Source: Anaerolineae bacterium (lineage in GTDB: Bacteria > Chloroflexota > Anaerolineae > Aggregatilineales > Phototrophicaceae). From it: DNA of 64,000 nt. The first letter of the stretch is position 1. Each line of letters begins with the position of its first letter. Shown in pieces: positions 22,574 to 39,408 of this stretch. The stretch is from positions 94,750 through 158,749 of the forward strand of contig JAHDWN010000004.1 in NCBI GenBank assembly GCA_023382675.1. The letters are read 5' to 3'. Made by a program: the position numbers and the translations under genes. Under the pieces are notes generated by a model. It was not told the DNA's origin. It ran no database searches and saw only the letters and a list, made by a program, of their open reading frames with translations.

Positions 22574-22602
22574 TTAACCTGCATATGATTATGTTGTATA
22601 GA
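22574..22602 (+). promoter_or_regulatory. Candidate promoter of the Crp/Fnr-type gene
   Basis: TTAACC (22574-22579) and TATAGA (22597-22602) are separated by 17 bp, each matching the consensus at four of six positions. It lies directly after the inverted repeat and 43 bp before the chosen start codon. Confidence 0.35.
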
Positions 22603-22644
22603 AAACAAGCGCGCACATTTGTCGTTAGGGCAGGAAGCACACTC

Positions 22645-23442
22645 ATGATTTACACACTCAGAGCGGATAGAAATGTGATCGTCCCTCATTTTCAGGAGGG
22701 AAGTGACGAAGTTCCGCACATCAAGTCCAGGACAGGCACGTTGTACGCCGTGAATAATCATCCCGCCTCTATCTTGTTTGCCGGCCTCTCGCCAGAGCAG
22801 ATCGAAATCGTGGGTCGCACGATGCGCATCAGCCCGTATGCACGCCGCAATTTTGTGTTTCACGCGGGCGAGATCGCCGAGAGCCTGTACATTGTCTACG
22901 AGGGGGTGGTGAAGAACGTCTACACCAACGCACGCGGTGACGAGCAAATTCTCGGCATTTTTCAGGCGGGCGATATTTTCGGCGAACTGTTCCTGGGAAA
23001 GTACATGCATAGAATCGGAACGGCGAGCGCCGTTACCAGTGCAGTCGTCGCATCGCTGACGAGAAACGATCTTGAGCGGTTGATCGAGCAGATTCCGCGC
23101 ATCGGCATCAATTTCATCCAACATCTTGCCGACGAGCAGCGCGAGACTCTGGCGCGAATGCACGCAATGCGCCAGGCCAATGCCCGCAACCGCTTGATGG
23201 GTACACTCTTGACGCTGGCACGGCGCTCATATCGCGCTTCCGATGAATGGTTTGACCTCCCACCCGGCATCACCCAGGCGGATATCGCCAACGTTGCCGG
23301 ATTGAACCGGAGCACCGCCAGCCTGCTGATCAATGACCTCCGGCGCGATGGCATTCTCGGCGGAACAGGCCGTCTTCTGACCATCAACCGCAGACGGGTG
23401 GAGCATATTCTCGAAACGGAAGGACTGGAGATTCTAGAGTGA
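22645..23442 (+). CDS. Crp/Fnr-family transcription regulator
   Basis: A regulator of 265 residues with an N-terminal cyclic-nucleotide-binding-type beta-barrel and a C-terminal winged helix. The barrel shows IFQAGDIFGELFLGKYMHRIGT and the DNA-binding part shows ITQADIANVAGLNRSTASLLINDL, a typical Crp recognition helix. There are no FNR-type N-terminal cysteines. The canonical Arg-Ser/Thr phosphate cassette of cAMP-binding Crp is only loosely matched (HRIGTAS), so the ligand is uncertain. A frame opens at 22585, but ATG 22645 has AGGAAG upstream and is preferred. The 30-residue N-terminal extension before the barrel is unusual. Confidence 0.88.
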   Translation: MIYTLRADRNVIVPHFQEGSDEVPHIKSRTGTLYAVNNHPASILFAGLSPEQIEIVGRTMRISPYARRNFVFHAGEIAESLYIVYEGVVKNVYTNARGDEQILGIFQAGDIFGELFLGKYMHRIGTASAVTSAVVASLTRNDLERLIEQIPRIGINFIQHLADEQRETLARMHAMRQANARNRLMGTLLTLARRSYRASDEWFDLPPGITQADIANVAGLNRSTASLLINDLRRDGILGGTGRLLTINRRRVEHILETEGLEILE

Positions 23443-28747: not shown

Positions 28748-29839
28748 CTACTGCGCGCGCGAATCGTAGTAACAGGGCACGCCTAACATCTGGGCAATGT
28801 GCAGGCCAAGCGCTTGCAGCGACGTTTGAGCTGCCGCAGGTGTGAGCAAGAACACCCCATTCTGGTAGGTCTGCAAGCCTGATTCGGCTTCCGGGCTGAG
28901 TTTGAGATCTGTCGCGCCCTGCGTGAGCACGTGCTGAAACCGCCCATCAACAAGCTGGAGGTTCATCTCGCCGTAGGGAATCGGCTGGATACCGTTCTTG
29001 CGGGGTTTCTGCACAATCTGGCTGATGTACACCGCCTGGAGATCGTCCACCTCATGGCGCCAGCGTTCATTGCCACGACGCAGGCCACGAATTGCCTTTG
29101 CTTCAGGATGGACAACCAGGCGGTCGATCTGCTTGTCAGGCAAAAGCAGGGCACGGAGCGCCAGCACAAACAGCAGCAACGCCGCCCCCAGACCAACGTA
29201 GGGCAAGAATTCCGGGCGCGGCAGCGCAATACCATTGGTCAACGTCAAGCCGGACAAGGCCAGATAGATGATTGAAAGCAGCAGATACCAGATGCCTCGC
29301 AGGAATCGAGAGCGCCCAACCTGGGCATCACGGACGGCTTCAATCTGGCCGTTGTCGCGCAAACTGACCGACCATTCATCGAGCTTGTCGGGCAAGGGTG
29401 GCAGCGCAACCGGCGCTTCTACCGCCGGGCTGACTCGTGGCGGCACAAAATAAAACGGTCGATCTACCGTTTGCGCCAATGACTCGGCTGCCTGCCGGGC
29501 GACTTCTTCCAGAAGCTGCCCATCCGGGTCCGGCCAGTGGACCAGCTCGCACCAGCGGCTGCCGCGTGGGCGGGCAAGCTCAGGCTCAAGCAAGAAGCCC
29601 AGATGCCACGACTCGTCTTCATTTGACCAGCCCAAGACGATACGCTGGATGTACTGCGTAGGCAAAATGCCAGTGTCGGGCAGTCTGCGTGTGCTGCCAA
29701 ACGCCGGGATATAACGCAGCGGCTCATGGAGATTTACTTCGACCAGGGATTGTTCCAAATCAGCGCCATTAGCAAACAAACGCCAGCTCTGGGGTCGGAT
29801 TTCGATGGACAGATTGCCACCTGCGGAGATGCGATTCAT
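28748..29839 (-). CDS. Hypothetical protein with two transmembrane helices
   Basis: A protein of about 363 residues that I do not recognise. The N-terminal 170 residues look soluble and beta-rich (LSIEIRPQSWRLFANGADLEQSL, then RIVLGWSNEDESWHLGFLLEPEL). Two adjacent helices follow near residues 190-235 (FLRGIWYLLLSIIYLALSGLTL and GLGAALLLFVLALRALLL), then a further soluble domain (RLVVHPEAKAIRGLRRGNERWRHEVDDLQAVYIS). The soluble-TM-TM-soluble plan suggests a membrane-anchored PH-like or sensor protein. A TTG at 29869 could be the start; ATG 29839 is more likely. It lies 80 bp downstream of the cyclase pair on the same strand, so it may be in that operon. Confidence 0.7.
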   Translation of the reverse strand: MNRISAGGNLSIEIRPQSWRLFANGADLEQSLVEVNLHEPLRYIPAFGSTRRLPDTGILPTQYIQRIVLGWSNEDESWHLGFLLEPELARPRGSRWCELVHWPDPDGQLLEEVARQAAESLAQTVDRPFYFVPPRVSPAVEAPVALPPLPDKLDEWSVSLRDNGQIEAVRDAQVGRSRFLRGIWYLLLSIIYLALSGLTLTNGIALPRPEFLPYVGLGAALLLFVLALRALLLPDKQIDRLVVHPEAKAIRGLRRGNERWRHEVDDLQAVYISQIVQKPRKNGIQPIPYGEMNLQLVDGRFQHVLTQGATDLKLSPEAESGLQTYQNGVFLLTPAAAQTSLQALGLHIAQMLGVPCYYDSRAQ

Positions 29840-29919
29840 GCGCGGGTCTCGCCATGTAAAGGGATTCAAACATGCTCGAACAATAAGAGTCTACTCGACA
29901 GCGCATTTCATGACAATCG

Positions 29920-31719
29920 CTAATCCATTCGGACGGCTGGTGTCTGGCCTGTATGCCGTCTGCGCCGCAGCACCCGGTAGACAGTTGGTATCTCGAATTT
30001 CTGTTTCAAATCACGGGGAGCCATAGCCTCACATTCAAAATCATCTTCCACCAACGTATGTGTTTCACTGCTCAACAAAATCTCGCCTGGGTGTGCCATC
30101 TCCTGTAGCCACTTGCTGATTTCGATAGCTTCGCCAATAGCGGCGAACTCTCGTCGTTCAGCGCTGCCGATATTCCCCAGGATGGCGTTTCCCGTATGAA
30201 TGCCAATCCCAAAATGCAATTGAAAAGGCGCATCCAACTGTTCATGCAGCGCCAGAACCGCCCGCATTGTGCGCAGCGCCGCCCTGACGGCGCGCCGTGC
30301 GTGATCAGGCTGCGGGTTCAGAGGTGTATTGAATAGGCCGGTCACAGCATCGCCAATGTACTTATCGACGACGCCTTGATAACGGTTGACAGCATCGCTC
30401 GCTGCCCCAAGATAGCGGTTGATGATTTGCATCAGCAACTCAGGTTCCAGATGTTCGCTGAACTGTGAAAAACCGCGCACGTCGGCGAAAAAAGCGGTGA
30501 TCTCACGCTCCTGACCGCCGAACCCAGACAGATCGACACTGCGAATATTCTCCACCAGCGCCAGCGGCAAATACCGGCGCGCAGTCGTGAGCTGGGCTTC
30601 ACGGCGCTTGGTGTCCGTCAGATCGTCCAGCACCATGGCGACACCTTGCAGCACTCCATCCGCGTCTTGCAGCGGCGACATCGTGATCTTCCAGTCGCGC
30701 TGCCCAAGCGAGGCAATCTCGACTTGCGTGACGAGTTGCTCAACCGATCGAGAGGTTTGCACACGCGCCAATTTTTCCTGGAATGTATTGTTGGGCGTGC
30801 TCAACACCTGCCAGAGATTTTTACCGCTGATCTGTGCTGCTTTAGCGCCGATCATTTGTTCCGCAGCGGTATTGATGCTGATGATGCGCGCCTGGAGATC
30901 CAGCGTGATCACGCCGCTGATGATGGACGCAAAGACATTCGCCATCAGATCGCGGATCCGTGCGATTTCGTTCAGTTGAGCACGCGCGGCATCGAAGAGC
31001 CGGGCATTTTGCAGGGCAACCGCCGCTTGATCGGCAAAGGCGCGCAGAAGATTAAGCTCGTACTCGTTGAAGACCCCGGCGAGAATGCGGTTATCGCAGT
31101 AGACGACGCCGATCACCTCATTGCCCACGTAAAGGGGCACGGCCAGAATACTGCGAAACGCACCGCGCATAATGCTATGCTGCAAATGAAACCGAGGATC
31201 GCTGCCCGCATTATCGGTCAGGATCGCCTCGCCCGTCTTGACAACCTGGTTGATGATCGTGCTGCTGAACGAGAAGTCGGAGCTATCGAGCGTCTCGCGA
31301 TCAAAATCGCGCGCCACCCGCACGTCCAGTTCGCCGGAGTCGTCCTTGAGCATGACGAAGCCGCGCTCTGCGCCGGTCAATGAAATGACAGTATCGATCA
31401 CGTTGTTGAGCACGTCGCTCACTGCCAGCGTCGAGGTCATCAACGCCGTGGTTTCTGCCAGCGCGCGCAACTGCCGCAGTTCGACTTGAGCGCCGGAAAC
31501 CGACATCGTCAGGCCATTCAGAGTCGAGGTGATAGTGTTCATGACCGCCATCACCCCCGACGGCACATTCATGCCGTATTGGCGCAGAGCGTCTTGCTGA
31601 CCACGGAGGAGCGTATGGGCCTGATCCGAGGTGTGGATAAGCTGTCGAAGTTCTTCCTGCGCCGTATGCTGAGTATCGTCTATTCGGAATGAGTCGGTCG
31701 CACCAAGATTATCGTTCAC
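29920..31719 (-). CDS. GAF-PAS-class III cyclase, metal-site (C1-like) subunit
   Basis: A 599-residue protein: N-terminal coiled coil, GAF domain (about residues 85-240), PAS domain (about 255-375), and class III nucleotide cyclase domain (about 405-575). The cyclase keeps both metal-binding aspartates, Asp413 in FFADVRGF and Asp457 in DKYIGDAV. The usual GDxVNxAxRLE motif reads GEAIEISKWLQ, so the transition-state Asn is Glu533 and Arg is Trp537; the base-selecting position is Ala526. A homodimer should therefore be inactive, and it needs a partner that supplies Asn and Arg. The GTG start at 31719 overlaps the upstream gene's stop by 4 nt (GTGA). A longer frame to 31782 exists but is less likely. 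Confidence 0.88.
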   Translation of the reverse strand: MNDNLGATDSFRIDDTQHTAQEELRQLIHTSDQAHTLLRGQQDALRQYGMNVPSGVMAVMNTITSTLNGLTMSVSGAQVELRQLRALAETTALMTSTLAVSDVLNNVIDTVISLTGAERGFVMLKDDSGELDVRVARDFDRETLDSSDFSFSSTIINQVVKTGEAILTDNAGSDPRFHLQHSIMRGAFRSILAVPLYVGNEVIGVVYCDNRILAGVFNEYELNLLRAFADQAAVALQNARLFDAARAQLNEIARIRDLMANVFASIISGVITLDLQARIISINTAAEQMIGAKAAQISGKNLWQVLSTPNNTFQEKLARVQTSRSVEQLVTQVEIASLGQRDWKITMSPLQDADGVLQGVAMVLDDLTDTKRREAQLTTARRYLPLALVENIRSVDLSGFGGQEREITAFFADVRGFSQFSEHLEPELLMQIINRYLGAASDAVNRYQGVVDKYIGDAVTGLFNTPLNPQPDHARRAVRAALRTMRAVLALHEQLDAPFQLHFGIGIHTGNAILGNIGSAERREFAAIGEAIEISKWLQEMAHPGEILLSSETHTLVEDDFECEAMAPRDLKQKFEIPTVYRVLRRRRHTGQTPAVRMD

Positions 31720-33440
31720 GCGTTCGTCACCTTGTAGATGCGGGTCAACTGCTGGCGACCTTTCACCTGGATGGCCGGACATTCTTCACAGCGTGATCCG
31801 GATGGAAGCTTGCCTTGTACACGATTCATGGTCTCTTCGCTGATCAAGATCTGGCCGCCGCTAGCATACTCCTCCAGGCGTTTAGCGAGGTTGATGCTGT
31901 CTCCCAGGGCCGTGAAGCTGCGGCGCTGAACACCACCGATATTGCCCATGGTCGCCACGCCGGTGTGAATGCCGATGCGATACGAAGGTTGATGATTGTC
32001 GATGCCATGCCGCGCATTTAGGGTTTGAATCGCATCTTGCAGTTGGAGGGCTGTCTCCAGGGCGCGGGCTGCATGGTCGGCCTGAGGATTAAGCTGCGTA
32101 TTGTAGAGCGCCATGATCTCCTGGCCCATGTACTTGTCGATCAGCCCGCCTGCGTTATGGACAATCGTGGTGATCGTTTCCAAATACAGGTTGAGTGTGT
32201 CCATCATCTGGGCAGTTCCACGCGCGCCAAACTGCGCCAGCGGCCCCATATCGACGAACATGCAACTGACTTCTCGGCGCTCGCCGCCCAACCCCAACGA
32301 TGCAATCTCGTGAATATTCTCGATCATGCCCGGAGGTAGATAACGCCGCAGCAGATCAAGCGTCTCTTCGTTCGCGCGCTGGTGGGTCAGGTCATCCAAC
32401 ACAACGATGACGCCGTCTTCTTCGCCTTCGTGGCTCTTGAGCGGGCCAACCTTCAAATTGAGCACGACACGGCCACGGCCATGGACTTCGGTTTCGACTT
32501 CGAATTCCTGGCTCTGGTGGTGTTCGCGCACAGACAACAGCGCATCTTCTACATCAAGGGGGAGCAGCGGCAGAACATCGCGCAGGGGTTTTCGATGCGC
32601 TGTTTTCGTAGATAGACGCAGCATTCTGGCGGCTGCCGCGTTCCAGGCAATCACAAGGTCGTTTACATCGGCTGTGACCACCCCGCTGGCAATCGAGGCA
32701 AACACGTTTTCCATCAATTCCGTCGCCTGGGTGATTTCACGCAGATTCGCCTGAACGCTCACGAACAACCGCGCATTAGCGATGGCGACCGCGATTTGAT
32801 TGGCGATGGCACTTAGAAGCGTCAGCTCGCGCCCGGTAAAGACCGCCACCCGCAAACGATTGTCGGCGTAAATCACGCCTTCAGTTTTCCCCTTGAACAC
32901 GAGTGGGACACAGAGCACCGAACGCAGCACATAGCGTGTAACCGTTGCGCTCCCGGCGATGCGCGGGTCGTGGGCGGCATTGTCTGTCAGCAGCGGCTTG
33001 CCGCTCGTCATCACCTGGTTGATGATCGATTGGCTCAGGCCTTCATCGTCCTCACCCGGCACGCGCGTCCGTGCCAGGTAGGTTTCGAGCTTACCCTCGT
33101 CGTTCGTGAGCAAAATGTAGCCTCGCTCTGCGCCCGTAAATTGCAGGACGGCATCCATGGCGCGTTCGAGCACGGTGTCTAGCTCGAAAGACGAATTGAT
33201 GAGTGCGGACGTATGCACAAGCGCACGCAGTTGCCGCAGTTCTGCTGCATCATTGTTAAGCAGATTTCCCAACCGTCCGATTCCGCTTTCGACCGCCAGC
33301 AGCAAATTGACCAGGCCAGGCTGAAGCGACAGTCCACGTAGCTGCAGCAATTCCTGCTGGCGTTGCAGTGCGGCGGTGACTTCGCTGGCTTTGCTCCCCA
33401 GTTGAGATACCTGCTCGCGGGCTTGTTCCGGGCTTGTCAT
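31716..33440 (-). CDS. GAF-PAS-class III cyclase, catalytic-residue (C2-like) subunit
   Basis: A 574-residue paralogue of the next gene: coiled coil, GAF (about residues 70-225), PAS (about 240-355), cyclase (about 385-560). It keeps Asp397 (FVDM) but the second metal aspartate is Gln440 (DKYMGQEIM), and the first motif has lost the usual RGFT. It keeps Lys436, Thr510 at the base-selecting position, and Asn517/Arg521 in GDSINLAKRLE. This is the reverse of the partner's losses. It therefore looks like a C2-type subunit that complements the neighbour. The start ATG 33440 has GAGGTG 4 nt upstream. It is the first gene of the operon and lies divergent from the TPR gene. Confidence 0.88.
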   Translation of the reverse strand: MTSPEQAREQVSQLGSKASEVTAALQRQQELLQLRGLSLQPGLVNLLLAVESGIGRLGNLLNNDAAELRQLRALVHTSALINSSFELDTVLERAMDAVLQFTGAERGYILLTNDEGKLETYLARTRVPGEDDEGLSQSIINQVMTSGKPLLTDNAAHDPRIAGSATVTRYVLRSVLCVPLVFKGKTEGVIYADNRLRVAVFTGRELTLLSAIANQIAVAIANARLFVSVQANLREITQATELMENVFASIASGVVTADVNDLVIAWNAAAARMLRLSTKTAHRKPLRDVLPLLPLDVEDALLSVREHHQSQEFEVETEVHGRGRVVLNLKVGPLKSHEGEEDGVIVVLDDLTHQRANEETLDLLRRYLPPGMIENIHEIASLGLGGERREVSCMFVDMGPLAQFGARGTAQMMDTLNLYLETITTIVHNAGGLIDKYMGQEIMALYNTQLNPQADHAARALETALQLQDAIQTLNARHGIDNHQPSYRIGIHTGVATMGNIGGVQRRSFTALGDSINLAKRLEEYASGGQILISEETMNRVQGKLPSGSRCEECPAIQVKGRQQLTRIYKVTNA

Positions 33441-33551
33441 CGTCACCTCAATTCAATCTACACCGATTATACGCACATTCTGGCGTGCCGCTGGTGAGTT
33501 TGTTAAACTCCATTAATTCATTCATGCTAGAGCGACCGTGGATTTATTCTT

Positions 33552-36548: not shown

Positions 36549-37787
36549 ATGATCGACGTGTTTATTTCTTATTCGCGCCGTGATATTGAGTTTGTGCGTG
36601 ACCTTCACAACACGCTGATCGCGTGCGGATTGCAGGTCTGGGTCGATCTGGCCGACATTGACTACTCGACTCAGTGGTGGCAGGAAATCTGCACTGCGAT
36701 TGACGGCGCATCAAATGTGGTCTTTGTCATCAGCCCGGATTCGCTGACATCAGAGTACTGCCATAAAGAGCTATCGCGCGCACGCGCGGGAAACAAACGT
36801 CTCATCACCTTGCTGCGACGTGAGGTTGACGGACGTGCGGTGAACGACGCCCTGTTCGATAAGCCCTGGGAAGCCGAAGCCCGTGAGAACTGGCGGCACG
36901 TTGACGCGACACAGTACTTGCCGATGCGCGAGACTGACGATTTCGACGCGGCGCTGGAGGCTTTGCTGCGCATCCTGAGCACGGATCACGAGCTGGTGCG
37001 CATGCACACGCGCATCGGGATGCGGGCTGGCGAATGGCAGGCAGCTCCCGACGAGAGCCTTCTGCTGCGCGGCCACGATCTGGAAGTTGTCCGGCAGTGG
37101 CTGGCAGGCAATCCGTCGCCTGCGCCAACAGAGGCTCAACGCGCGTACATCGCGGCCAGCCAGGCCTATGAGAACCAGGTTCTCGGCCAGCGGCGGACAT
37201 TGACGCTGCGCCAATTTCTCGGCCTCCGTTATCTGGGTGCAGCGGTCGGATCAGGCTTCAGCATCGGTGTCGCGGTCTTCGTACTGCGTGACGACCCGCT
37301 GGGTGCGCTGGCGGCACTCCGCTTGCTCTCAGCGCTGGCATTGGGCGCGCTGTTCGGCTGTTTGCTGGGACTCGCCATTCTCATGGCGACTGAACTGAGT
37401 CTGCCGCGCCTGGGCAAGCTCAGCGCCTGGGCTGCCGGAGGATTCGTGTGTGCGCTGGCGTTTGGCCTGTATCATGCGTTGCAGCGCGGCAGCCTGCCCG
37501 ACGATGTGCCGCTCTGGCTCGGCTCAGCGTTGGCGTTTACTGCCGGGTTCTGGTTGGCGGAGAGGCTGTCCAATACCGCCGTGCGAGCGTGCCTCGCGGC
37601 GGCAGGGGTGTTTGCGGCGCTCTATCTCCCACAGATTATCGCAGCCCCCGGCATCTTTCAGTTTGGGGCGCTGGCACTGCCCCTGAGCGCGGGCAGTGCA
37701 ATTCTGATTGGCATCCTCACATTTCTGCCGGAGTTCAACGGCATCACACACCCGTCCATGACGGCGAAGCGTGATACCAGGGAGTAA
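36549..37787 (+). CDS. TIR-domain protein with multi-helix membrane tail
   Basis: A 412-residue protein. Residues 1-135 are a TIR domain: DVFISYSRRDIEFVRDLHNTL, VWVDLADIDYSTQWWQEICTAID, VFVISPDSLTSEYCHKELSRA. Glu74 in CHKEL sits where NAD-consuming TIR enzymes have their catalytic glutamate. A linker with LLLRGHDLEVVRQWLAGNPSPAPTEAQRAYIAAS follows; similar linkers occur in TIR-WD40 proteins of Chloroflexota and cyanobacteria. The C-terminal half has about six membrane helices (residues 225-400) with no WD40 domain. TIR domains can act as NADases or as signalling adapters in antiphage defence. The downstream gene begins 4 nt after its stop, so the two are a unit. Confidence 0.87.
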   Translation: MIDVFISYSRRDIEFVRDLHNTLIACGLQVWVDLADIDYSTQWWQEICTAIDGASNVVFVISPDSLTSEYCHKELSRARAGNKRLITLLRREVDGRAVNDALFDKPWEAEARENWRHVDATQYLPMRETDDFDAALEALLRILSTDHELVRMHTRIGMRAGEWQAAPDESLLLRGHDLEVVRQWLAGNPSPAPTEAQRAYIAASQAYENQVLGQRRTLTLRQFLGLRYLGAAVGSGFSIGVAVFVLRDDPLGALAALRLLSALALGALFGCLLGLAILMATELSLPRLGKLSAWAAGGFVCALAFGLYHALQRGSLPDDVPLWLGSALAFTAGFWLAERLSNTAVRACLAAAGVFAALYLPQIIAAPGIFQFGALALPLSAGSAILIGILTFLPEFNGITHPSMTAKRDTRE

Positions 37788-37791
37788 TGCG

Positions 37792-39408
37792 ATGACCGGC
37801 ATCACACGGTTCTTGATCGGAGTCGTCTTTCTCAATGTGCTGCTTGCCCTGGCGGGCATCTTCTATCTGGTGACTATCGCAGGCGTACAGCCGCAAAGCT
37901 GCGAGCCTATCTGGGAAAAGATCGAGAACCAGATGGATGGCGTGAGCTGCCGGGGTTTGGGCAACAACAGTGCCTGTTATGGCAACGCGAAACTTGAAAC
38001 CCGGTTCCGACCCTTCACGGAAGAACAGCCTTTTAGCGCGCCGGGCGACGTTGCCGCGCTGGATAGGTTTGAGTCGATCTCGGCCCATCCGCTTGATTTG
38101 ACACGCCGCGAGTACGGCGTCGCTGTCCTCAGCATGGAAGCCCGTGTGCCCGGCGCGATGACCGGCGATCTCGTGACGTTCATCCTGTATGGCGCTTCAC
38201 ACCTGGACGAAGATAGTGGCGGCCAGAGCGTCATGAGTGTAGCGCCGAGAACTGCCGTGCTGCCTGCCTTTCACTTCTACACCGGCGTCGGTTTGACTGA
38301 ACAATGTCTCGATTTACCCGAGGGCGATCTGCCAAGTGGTGGTCTCCTGCTCCAGAGTCCGGATGGCCTGGCGGTCGCGTTCACCGCTAACGGGGCGCAA
38401 ATCGAGATCGGCTCAACGATCCTGCTGCAAGCGCGGCGAGCACAGACCATGATGGTGACTGTGCTTGAGGGGCACGCCAGCGTTCATGTTCCCGGCTATG
38501 CCACCCAGACGGCTTACGGCTTGCAGACAATCGACATCCCGCTCGGCGGCGCCAACGGGCTGCAAGCCAATGGTGCGCCAGGTGCGCCGCGCCGCACCGC
38601 CGCACGCGATCTCGGCCAGGGCACGATTTGCCGTCTGATCACATGGTCAGGGCTGAAATCCCCCTGCACACCGGGCAACCAGATCGCCACCCCAACCAGC
38701 CCGACAGCCCCGCCGACACTGGTACCGACGCCTGTGCCAACGGCGACGGCGACGCTGCCACCTGTGCCGACTGCCGTGCCACCGATAACTACATGTGTCG
38801 TGCAGCCACCTGCCGGTTGGCTCGTCTACGTGGTACAGCCAGGCGATACCCTTTTTAGCCTCTCGCAGCGCACGGGTACAACGATGGTAATCCTGGCCAC
38901 GGTCAACTGCATCGCATCGGTAGACCACATCTTCGTCGGTCAACGTCTGTACGTTCCGTATCTGCCGGTACCGATCAGCGCCTCGCCGACACCTTTTGTT
39001 CCGTCGCCGACGCCGCCACTGCCGTCAGCAACACCCATCGCGCCCACCGATACGCCGATACCGCCGATGATGCGTGTCGATTTCACCATGGCGGGCGAGG
39101 CCAGTTATGTCACCGAGTACGGGCGCTACGTCGCATATGCTGACATTTGCAAGCATGAGGCCGTGATGGTGAATTTCATCAACCAATCCTTTGGCGGAAA
39201 TGGGCGTTACACGTGGAATTTTGGCGACGGCAGCACCAGCGACGAGGTCAGTGCAGCGCACTACTATGCGATGACTCCTGTTGGTGAATCGCGAATCTAC
39301 ACCGTCACTTTGATCGCATACAGCGACTACAGCGGCCCGGTTACATACAGTCAGCAGCTCGAAGTGATCGGAACTTCGTGCCATGGTGAGCTTCAGGCGG
39401 CACATTAA
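37792..39408 (+). CDS. Exported FecR-like/LysM/PKD surface protein
   Basis: A 538-residue protein. An N-terminal membrane helix (residues 4-26) anchors or exports it. A region near residues 185-260 resembles FecR-like domains (GAQIEIGSTILLQA then MMVTVLEGHASVHVPG). A Pro/Thr linker (PTLVPTPVPTATATLP) leads to a LysM domain (VVQPGDTLFSLSQRTGTTM, then VGQRLYVPY), and a second linker to a PKD-like domain (YTWNFGDGSTSDEVSAAHYY). LysM binds peptidoglycan or glycan, PKD is a spacer or adhesive fold. ATG 37792 with GGAG 8 nt upstream is preferred. Encoded directly behind the TIR protein, it could be its extracellular partner. Confidence 0.82.
   Translation: MTGITRFLIGVVFLNVLLALAGIFYLVTIAGVQPQSCEPIWEKIENQMDGVSCRGLGNNSACYGNAKLETRFRPFTEEQPFSAPGDVAALDRFESISAHPLDLTRREYGVAVLSMEARVPGAMTGDLVTFILYGASHLDEDSGGQSVMSVAPRTAVLPAFHFYTGVGLTEQCLDLPEGDLPSGGLLLQSPDGLAVAFTANGAQIEIGSTILLQARRAQTMMVTVLEGHASVHVPGYATQTAYGLQTIDIPLGGANGLQANGAPGAPRRTAARDLGQGTICRLITWSGLKSPCTPGNQIATPTSPTAPPTLVPTPVPTATATLPPVPTAVPPITTCVVQPPAGWLVYVVQPGDTLFSLSQRTGTTMVILATVNCIASVDHIFVGQRLYVPYLPVPISASPTPFVPSPTPPLPSATPIAPTDTPIPPMMRVDFTMAGEASYVTEYGRYVAYADICKHEAVMVNFINQSFGGNGRYTWNFGDGSTSDEVSAAHYYAMTPVGESRIYTVTLIAYSDYSGPVTYSQQLEVIGTSCHGELQAAH

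Follow-up and report, generated by a model that had tools for sequence, protein, structure and literature searches.

The 64,000-nucleotide stretch analysed here (the window: contig JAHDWN010000004.1, positions 94,750 to 158,749, from an Anaerolineae bacterium) carries two overlapping cyclase genes, called A (upstream) and B (downstream), whose features are collected in Table 1. Gene A encodes 574 amino acids, with an in-frame GTG 6 nucleotides (nt) further upstream, at 33446. Gene B encodes 599 amino acids from a GTG start; a mechanical list of open reading frames (ORFs) begins it at an ATG at 31782. The two proteins share the domain order GAF, PAS and Guanylate_cyc (PF00211), with every domain above the Pfam cut-offs. 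Single-chain AlphaFold2 models reached a mean predicted local distance difference test score (pLDDT) of 81.4 for A and 76.7 for B. In Foldseek, the catalytic domains of both models match CyaC, CyaB and Cya2 with target template modelling (TM) scores of ~0.78-0.87. Domain and fold together place both A and B among the class III nucleotidyl cyclases. The full-chain predicted TM score is only 0.45 (A) and 0.38 (B), so the arrangement of the domains is not fixed by the models. A preliminary description of the locus had given the same gene boundaries and GTGA overlap, which were correct on re-reading the sequence, and had assigned each half its own GAF and PAS sensor, as Pfam also finds.

Table 1. 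Coordinates of the A-B gene pair and its features within the window.
Feature	Position	Strand	Basis
Gene A, C2-like subunit (predicted): helical N-terminus, GAF, PAS, class III cyclase domain	31716..33440	-	Pfam, AlphaFold2
Gene B, C1-like subunit (predicted): architecture as in A, GTG start	29920..31719	-	Pfam, AlphaFold2
4-nt overlap GTGA (B start / A stop)	31716..31719	-	Sequence
AAGGTGA, Shine-Dalgarno-like, before B start (putative role)	31727..31733	-	Seen in sequence
A GAF domain, residues 86-220	32781..33185	-	PF01590, 71.8 bits
A PAS domain, residues ~242-352	32385..32717	-	PF00989, 32.5 bits; PF08448, 34.1 bits
A class III cyclase domain, residues 389-566	31743..32276	-	PF00211, 67.7 bits
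A Lys436, base-binding Lys retained	32133..32135	-	Lys in 91/91
A Gln440, second metal position, Asp lost	32121..32123	-	Asp in 0/91 A proteins
A Thr510, Asn517, Arg521 (base position, Asn, Arg retained)	31878..31913	-	Thr/Ser, Asn, Arg each 91/91
B GAF domain, residues 99-237	31009..31425	-	PF13185, 73 bits
B PAS domain, residues 264-372	30604..30930	-	PF08448, 47.9 bits
B class III cyclase domain, residues 405-576	29992..30507	-	PF00211, 57.9 bits
B Asp413, first metal Asp	30481..30483	-	Asp in 90/90 B proteins with the residue present
B Lys453, base-site Lys	30361..30363	-	Lys in 86/90 B proteins
B Asp457, second metal Asp	30349..30351	-	Asp in 90/90
B Ala526, Glu533, Trp537: altered base, Asn and Arg positions	30109..30144	-	Arg in 0/89 B

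Class III cyclases bind the nucleotide at a dimer interface, where one chain holds the metal ions and the other contributes the base-binding residues together with an Asn and an Arg. Lys plus Thr or Ser at the base positions is the pattern of class IIIb adenylyl cyclases, in which Thr/Ser replaces the adenine-selecting Asp. In the window pair, A has D397, K436, T510, N517 and R521, with Q440 at the second metal position, where the Asp is lost. B has D413, K453 and D457, with A526, E533 and W537 at the remaining three positions. All the assignments made in the preliminary description proved correct; K453 of B was absent from its list. Alignment to solved cyclases with HMMER sets A526, E533 and W537 of B against Thr, Asn and Arg of CyaB (3r5g), and Q440 of A against the second metal Asp of 6fht and 2w01. 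Gln at this position is peculiar to the window, being found in 1 of 91 A proteins; Asn, Thr and Ser are usual there.

Relatives were sought in the window's family (f1 in the numbering used here), order, class and phylum. At E<=1e-60, 91 of 98 f1 genomes match B, 87 of these with at least two matches, and 115 of 121 genomes of the order have a match at E<=1e-50. Family f2 shows a single match in each of the nine genomes sampled. At the level of the class, 74 of 249 genomes match B (E<=1e-60) and at that of the phylum 61 of 301 match A (E<=1e-50), in searches that scored just five and four candidates per genome, respectively. Adjacent A-B pairs were found in six families of the order (f1, f3, f4, f6, f7 and f8), and f5 is represented by a single A at a contig end. 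No adjacent pair occurs outside the order among the matches listed, second matches lying on other contigs, and 20 class loci outside the order showed one gene only, and no adjacent pair, within their flanks. The loci compared were the window and 120 fetched ones, covering 61 of the 91 matching f1 genomes and 31 of the 45 matching genomes of the order outside f1 and f2, as well as all nine f2 genomes and 20 class genomes outside the order, from the better-scoring matches. The labels A and B were assigned by position alone, upstream and downstream. Loci L086 and L091 are cut and were set aside, and in L089 and L139 a contig end leaves a single gene.

To see whether either gene occurs alone, 15 odd genomes of the order were searched again. 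The one-sided matches all lay at contig ends (G015:C328, G027:C515, G039:C137, G097:C786, G119:C146 and G142:C215), and G119 retains the last part of A ahead of B. G001, G046, G047, G048 and G095 gave no match to A or B and no PF00211 hit. G118 likewise gave no match to A or B, and G044, G045 and G150 contained other GAF or cyclase proteins only; with a completeness of 75-89%, these four assemblies do not prove absence. No fused A-B protein was recognised from ORF lengths, the sole criterion used; in L132 a 1144-residue open frame begins within A, in a different frame.

Across these relatives the division of residues is maintained. A composite site built from the two metal Asp of B and the Lys, Thr/Ser, Asn and Arg of A is complete in 88 of 88 complete pairs examined. 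None of them has a complete A/A or B/B site, and the mirror site of the same dimer lacks two of the six residues in 1 pair, three in 35, four in 39 and five in 13. All 91 A proteins have the Lys, Asn and Arg, with Thr (86) or Ser (5) for the adenine-selecting Asp as in class IIIb; the first metal Asp is present in 48 and the second in none. B proteins always have both metal Asp (90/90) and usually the Lys (86/90, with Gln in four), have Asn in 13/89 and never Arg (0/89); of the 91 B sequences, one is truncated ahead of all six positions and another ahead of the final three. Neither chain thus holds the six residues of a canonical homodimer, A for want of the second metal Asp and B of the Arg. 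The full set is available at one dimer interface, assumed from the family, only as an A+B composite. This is a split of the C1/C2 type, with the metals on one partner and the base and transition-state residues on the other. Complementarity of the losses in relatives had been set beforehand as a test that could refute the proposal; every complete pair is complementary, and all 29 single-copy relatives examined retain the six residues (base Thr or Ser). The retention of the split in 88 of 88 complete pairs shows that the pattern of the window pair is not a chance one.

Trees calculated without the six catalytic columns point to the origin of the pair. A quick tree comprised 110 proteins and was rooted on the class singles; in it the f2 singles branch next and A and B form sister clades, with support by the Shimodaira-Hasegawa-like approximate likelihood ratio test (SH-aLRT) of 99 for A, 97 for B and 100 for A+B. 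Family f1 was thinned to 16 loci for this tree; L091, L127 and L129 were omitted as cut, and L128, L132, L134 and L143 in thinning f3. The same arrangement appears in a careful tree of 52 proteins (A 100/99, B 98/96, A+B 100/100). With A and B as sisters and the f2 singles outside, the best fit is a single tandem duplication later than the branching of f2, which supports the duplication proposed in the preliminary description, and by the tree the split is placed inside one bacterial order. All pairs examined share the loss of the second metal Asp of A and of the Arg of B; changes of the first metal Asp of A, and of the Asn and base residue of B, have a patchy distribution and seem to be later.

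Fewest-change counts on separate A and B gene trees (88 rows each; L076, L086 and L091 left out) follow the same division. In A, the Lys, Asn and Arg columns require 0 changes each, the base position 4, metal-1 15 and metal-2 21, the median of 157 domain columns being 16. In B, both metal columns require 0 changes, Lys 2, base 22, Asn 32 and Arg 17, the median of 158 domain columns being 10. Over 85 pairs, the mean difference is 54% of residues among A chains and 52% among B chains, and A-A distances track B-B distances (r 0.91); this correlation is expected of co-inherited genes and alone is no proof of contact.

It is therefore proposed, with a probability of roughly 0.88, that A and B form an obligate heterodimeric class III adenylyl cyclase, IIIb-like in its Lys/Thr pair, which was born by tandem duplication and reciprocal loss. 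Because the metals would be bound by one chain and the base, Asn and Arg positions are filled by the other, only A/B among the three possible dimers can assemble a site, and A/A and B/B homodimers are predicted to be inactive. In this proposal, a single-copy gene for a homodimeric GAF-PAS-cyclase would have been duplicated in tandem after f2 split from the order's other families. B would have become the C1-like subunit, binding two metal ions through Asp413 and Asp457, and A the C2-like subunit, binding the base through Lys436 and Thr510 and supplying Asn517 and Arg521. The Lys and Thr at the base positions of A suggest adenosine triphosphate (ATP) as the substrate. The heterodimer would contain one productive ATP site and one decayed mirror site, which could bind a regulator. 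With a GAF-PAS sensor on each subunit, output of cyclic adenosine monophosphate (cAMP) would depend on both, and the product would act on CRP-type receptors.

Several observations weigh against this proposal. The Arg of B is replaced by Lys in 7/89 proteins (5/5 in f8 and 2/4 in f4), which may keep some function, and the Asn of B is kept in 13/89 (11/12 in f3), so that residual B homodimer activity is possible in these families. The base-site Lys of B, kept in 86/90, is not needed by a dead mirror site. Columns with zero changes also occur elsewhere in the domain and number 15/157 in A and 13/158 in B in total. Other genomes of the family carry up to 12 PF00211 hits and thus possible other partners, and 5 of 98 have none, so the system is dispensable.

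Among the alternatives, a heterodimer that works as proposed but makes cyclic guanosine monophosphate (cGMP) or another cyclic nucleotide survives best, at long odds. Base choice is not fixed by sequence alone, and Cya2 (2w01), titled a guanylyl cyclase, is among the closest solved relatives; however, two proteins titled adenylyl cyclases, CyaB and CyaC, are just as close, and Lys with Thr/Ser at the base positions is the adenylyl pattern of class IIIb. It is improbable to a further degree that one subunit is a catalytically dead regulator while its partner is active as a homodimer or together with a different cyclase, which would make the pair regulatory and not composite. Some class III cyclases do function with non-canonical residues, and B has both metal Asp, usually the Lys and, in f4 and f8, sometimes Lys for Arg. 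Against this, the Arg of B is absent in 89/89, the Lys, Asn and Arg of A are invariant (91/91, 0 changes) although needless in a non-catalytic regulator, and the window genome (96% complete) has no further PF00211 protein as a partner. Least probable of all is that A and B are pseudo-enzymes in decay, retained for their GAF-PAS sensing or for contacts with proteins, as the essential residues lost from each chain and the family genomes lacking PF00211 might suggest, since the losses spare the composite site in 88/88 pairs despite mean divergences of 54% and 52%.

In 52 of 90 pairs the stop of A and the start of B could overlap by 4 nt or 1 nt, and together with AAGGTGA ahead of the window's B start this makes translational coupling likely in many of them. 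The overlap of the window is real, but the earlier wording that it 'enforces equal synthesis' was too strong given this count; coupling of A and B appears frequent, not universal.

Beyond the pair itself, little of the surroundings is shared. Conserved neighbours were considered as a clue to function and rejected: nine window genes were sought in 37 loci (20 from f1, 11 pair loci of other families and 6 from f2, with flanks of ~2-6 kb on each side, shorter where a contig ends) and were seldom beside the pair. A-B adjacency is kept, while the window's TPR gene is nearby in 2 and its RecJ-like gene in 1 of the 20 f1 loci, and neither is found in the fetched flanks of the 11 pair loci from other families. 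Six window genes recur in L040 and four in L048; other matches are single and partial (L044, L050). The gene directly downstream of B (28748-29869, minus strand; 373 amino acids, no Pfam hit) is matched by a downstream copy of 82% identity in L040 and partially in L050. Further off, at 36549-37787 and 37771-39408 (plus strand), overlapping genes encode a TIR-domain protein, whose C-terminal part is hydrophobic by eye, and a LysM-PKD protein.

The window genome has no PF00211 hits besides A and B. Exactly two such hits are present in 32 of the 34 genomes of genus g22; each of these also has two matches to B, which may be the same genes. The window genome also has nine cNMP-binding matches. One of them, a CRP-type regulator (cNMP_binding plus Crp helix-turn-helix) at 22585-23442 (plus strand), ~6.5 kb from the pair, is a possible cAMP receptor. 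On contig C62 of this genome, a protein at 1273-2646 of locus L003 has a GAF domain 49% identical to that of B and by eye continues into a histidine kinase; a similar protein occurs in L257. Cyclases and kinases may share a sensor type.

A close parallel in design is found in the mammalian membrane adenylyl cyclases, whose C1 and C2 domains show the same reciprocal split between the metal Asp and the Lys, base, Asn and Arg residues, and the division into one productive and one decayed site that is proposed for A/B. They differ in being one fused eukaryotic membrane protein, in contrast to two GAF-PAS proteins from two bacterial genes. It is conceivable, although doubtful, that the order arrived independently at the animal C1/C2 plan in the form of a two-gene heterodimer, with the mirror site as an allosteric pocket, like the forskolin site of mammals, and the two GAF-PAS arms as a coincidence detector for two signals. 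The direct homologues of A and B are the single-copy GAF-PAS-cyclases of f2 and other Anaerolineae, which have the same domain order, as does the cyanobacterial CyaB1/CyaB2 type, but are encoded by one gene with all six residues, so that a two-site homodimer is possible.

Eukaryotes also provide separately encoded partners. The alpha and beta subunits of soluble guanylate cyclase (sGC) come from two genes and form a heterodimer with divided residues; homodimers of the human catalytic domains are inactive for this reason (PMC3591389). This animal enzyme has a haem-nitric oxide sensor and makes cGMP, whereas A and B have GAF-PAS sensors and adenylyl-type base residues. The NeoR/RGC rhodopsin guanylyl cyclases of chytrid fungi are obligate heterodimers of separately encoded class III cyclases, but RGC1/2 keep all cyclisation residues, so divided residues do not explain their obligate pairing (PMC8815786). 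For bacteria, a 2022 perspective (PMC9552081) states that class III adenylyl cyclases homodimerise and that fused dimeric class III species are unknown, and asks what advantage a duplicated, fused enzyme has over the bacterial one. The excerpted text of an actinobacterial cyclase survey (PMC2447327) has no passage on 'heterodimer', and no bacterial two-gene heterodimeric class III cyclase was among the titles listed by full-text searches of the open-access literature, subscription papers and preprints lying outside the search. Heterodimeric class III cyclases are already known in eukaryotes, and the A-B pair would be a bacterial two-gene version.

Living relatives in and around the order probably preserve the state before the split, in f2 and other Anaerolineae, and they show the split as such together with a graded decay of the putatively unused site, in which B keeps its Asn in 11/12 proteins of f3 and has Lys for Arg in 5/5 of f8. 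These stages would make the step from homodimer to obligate heterodimer testable in vitro.

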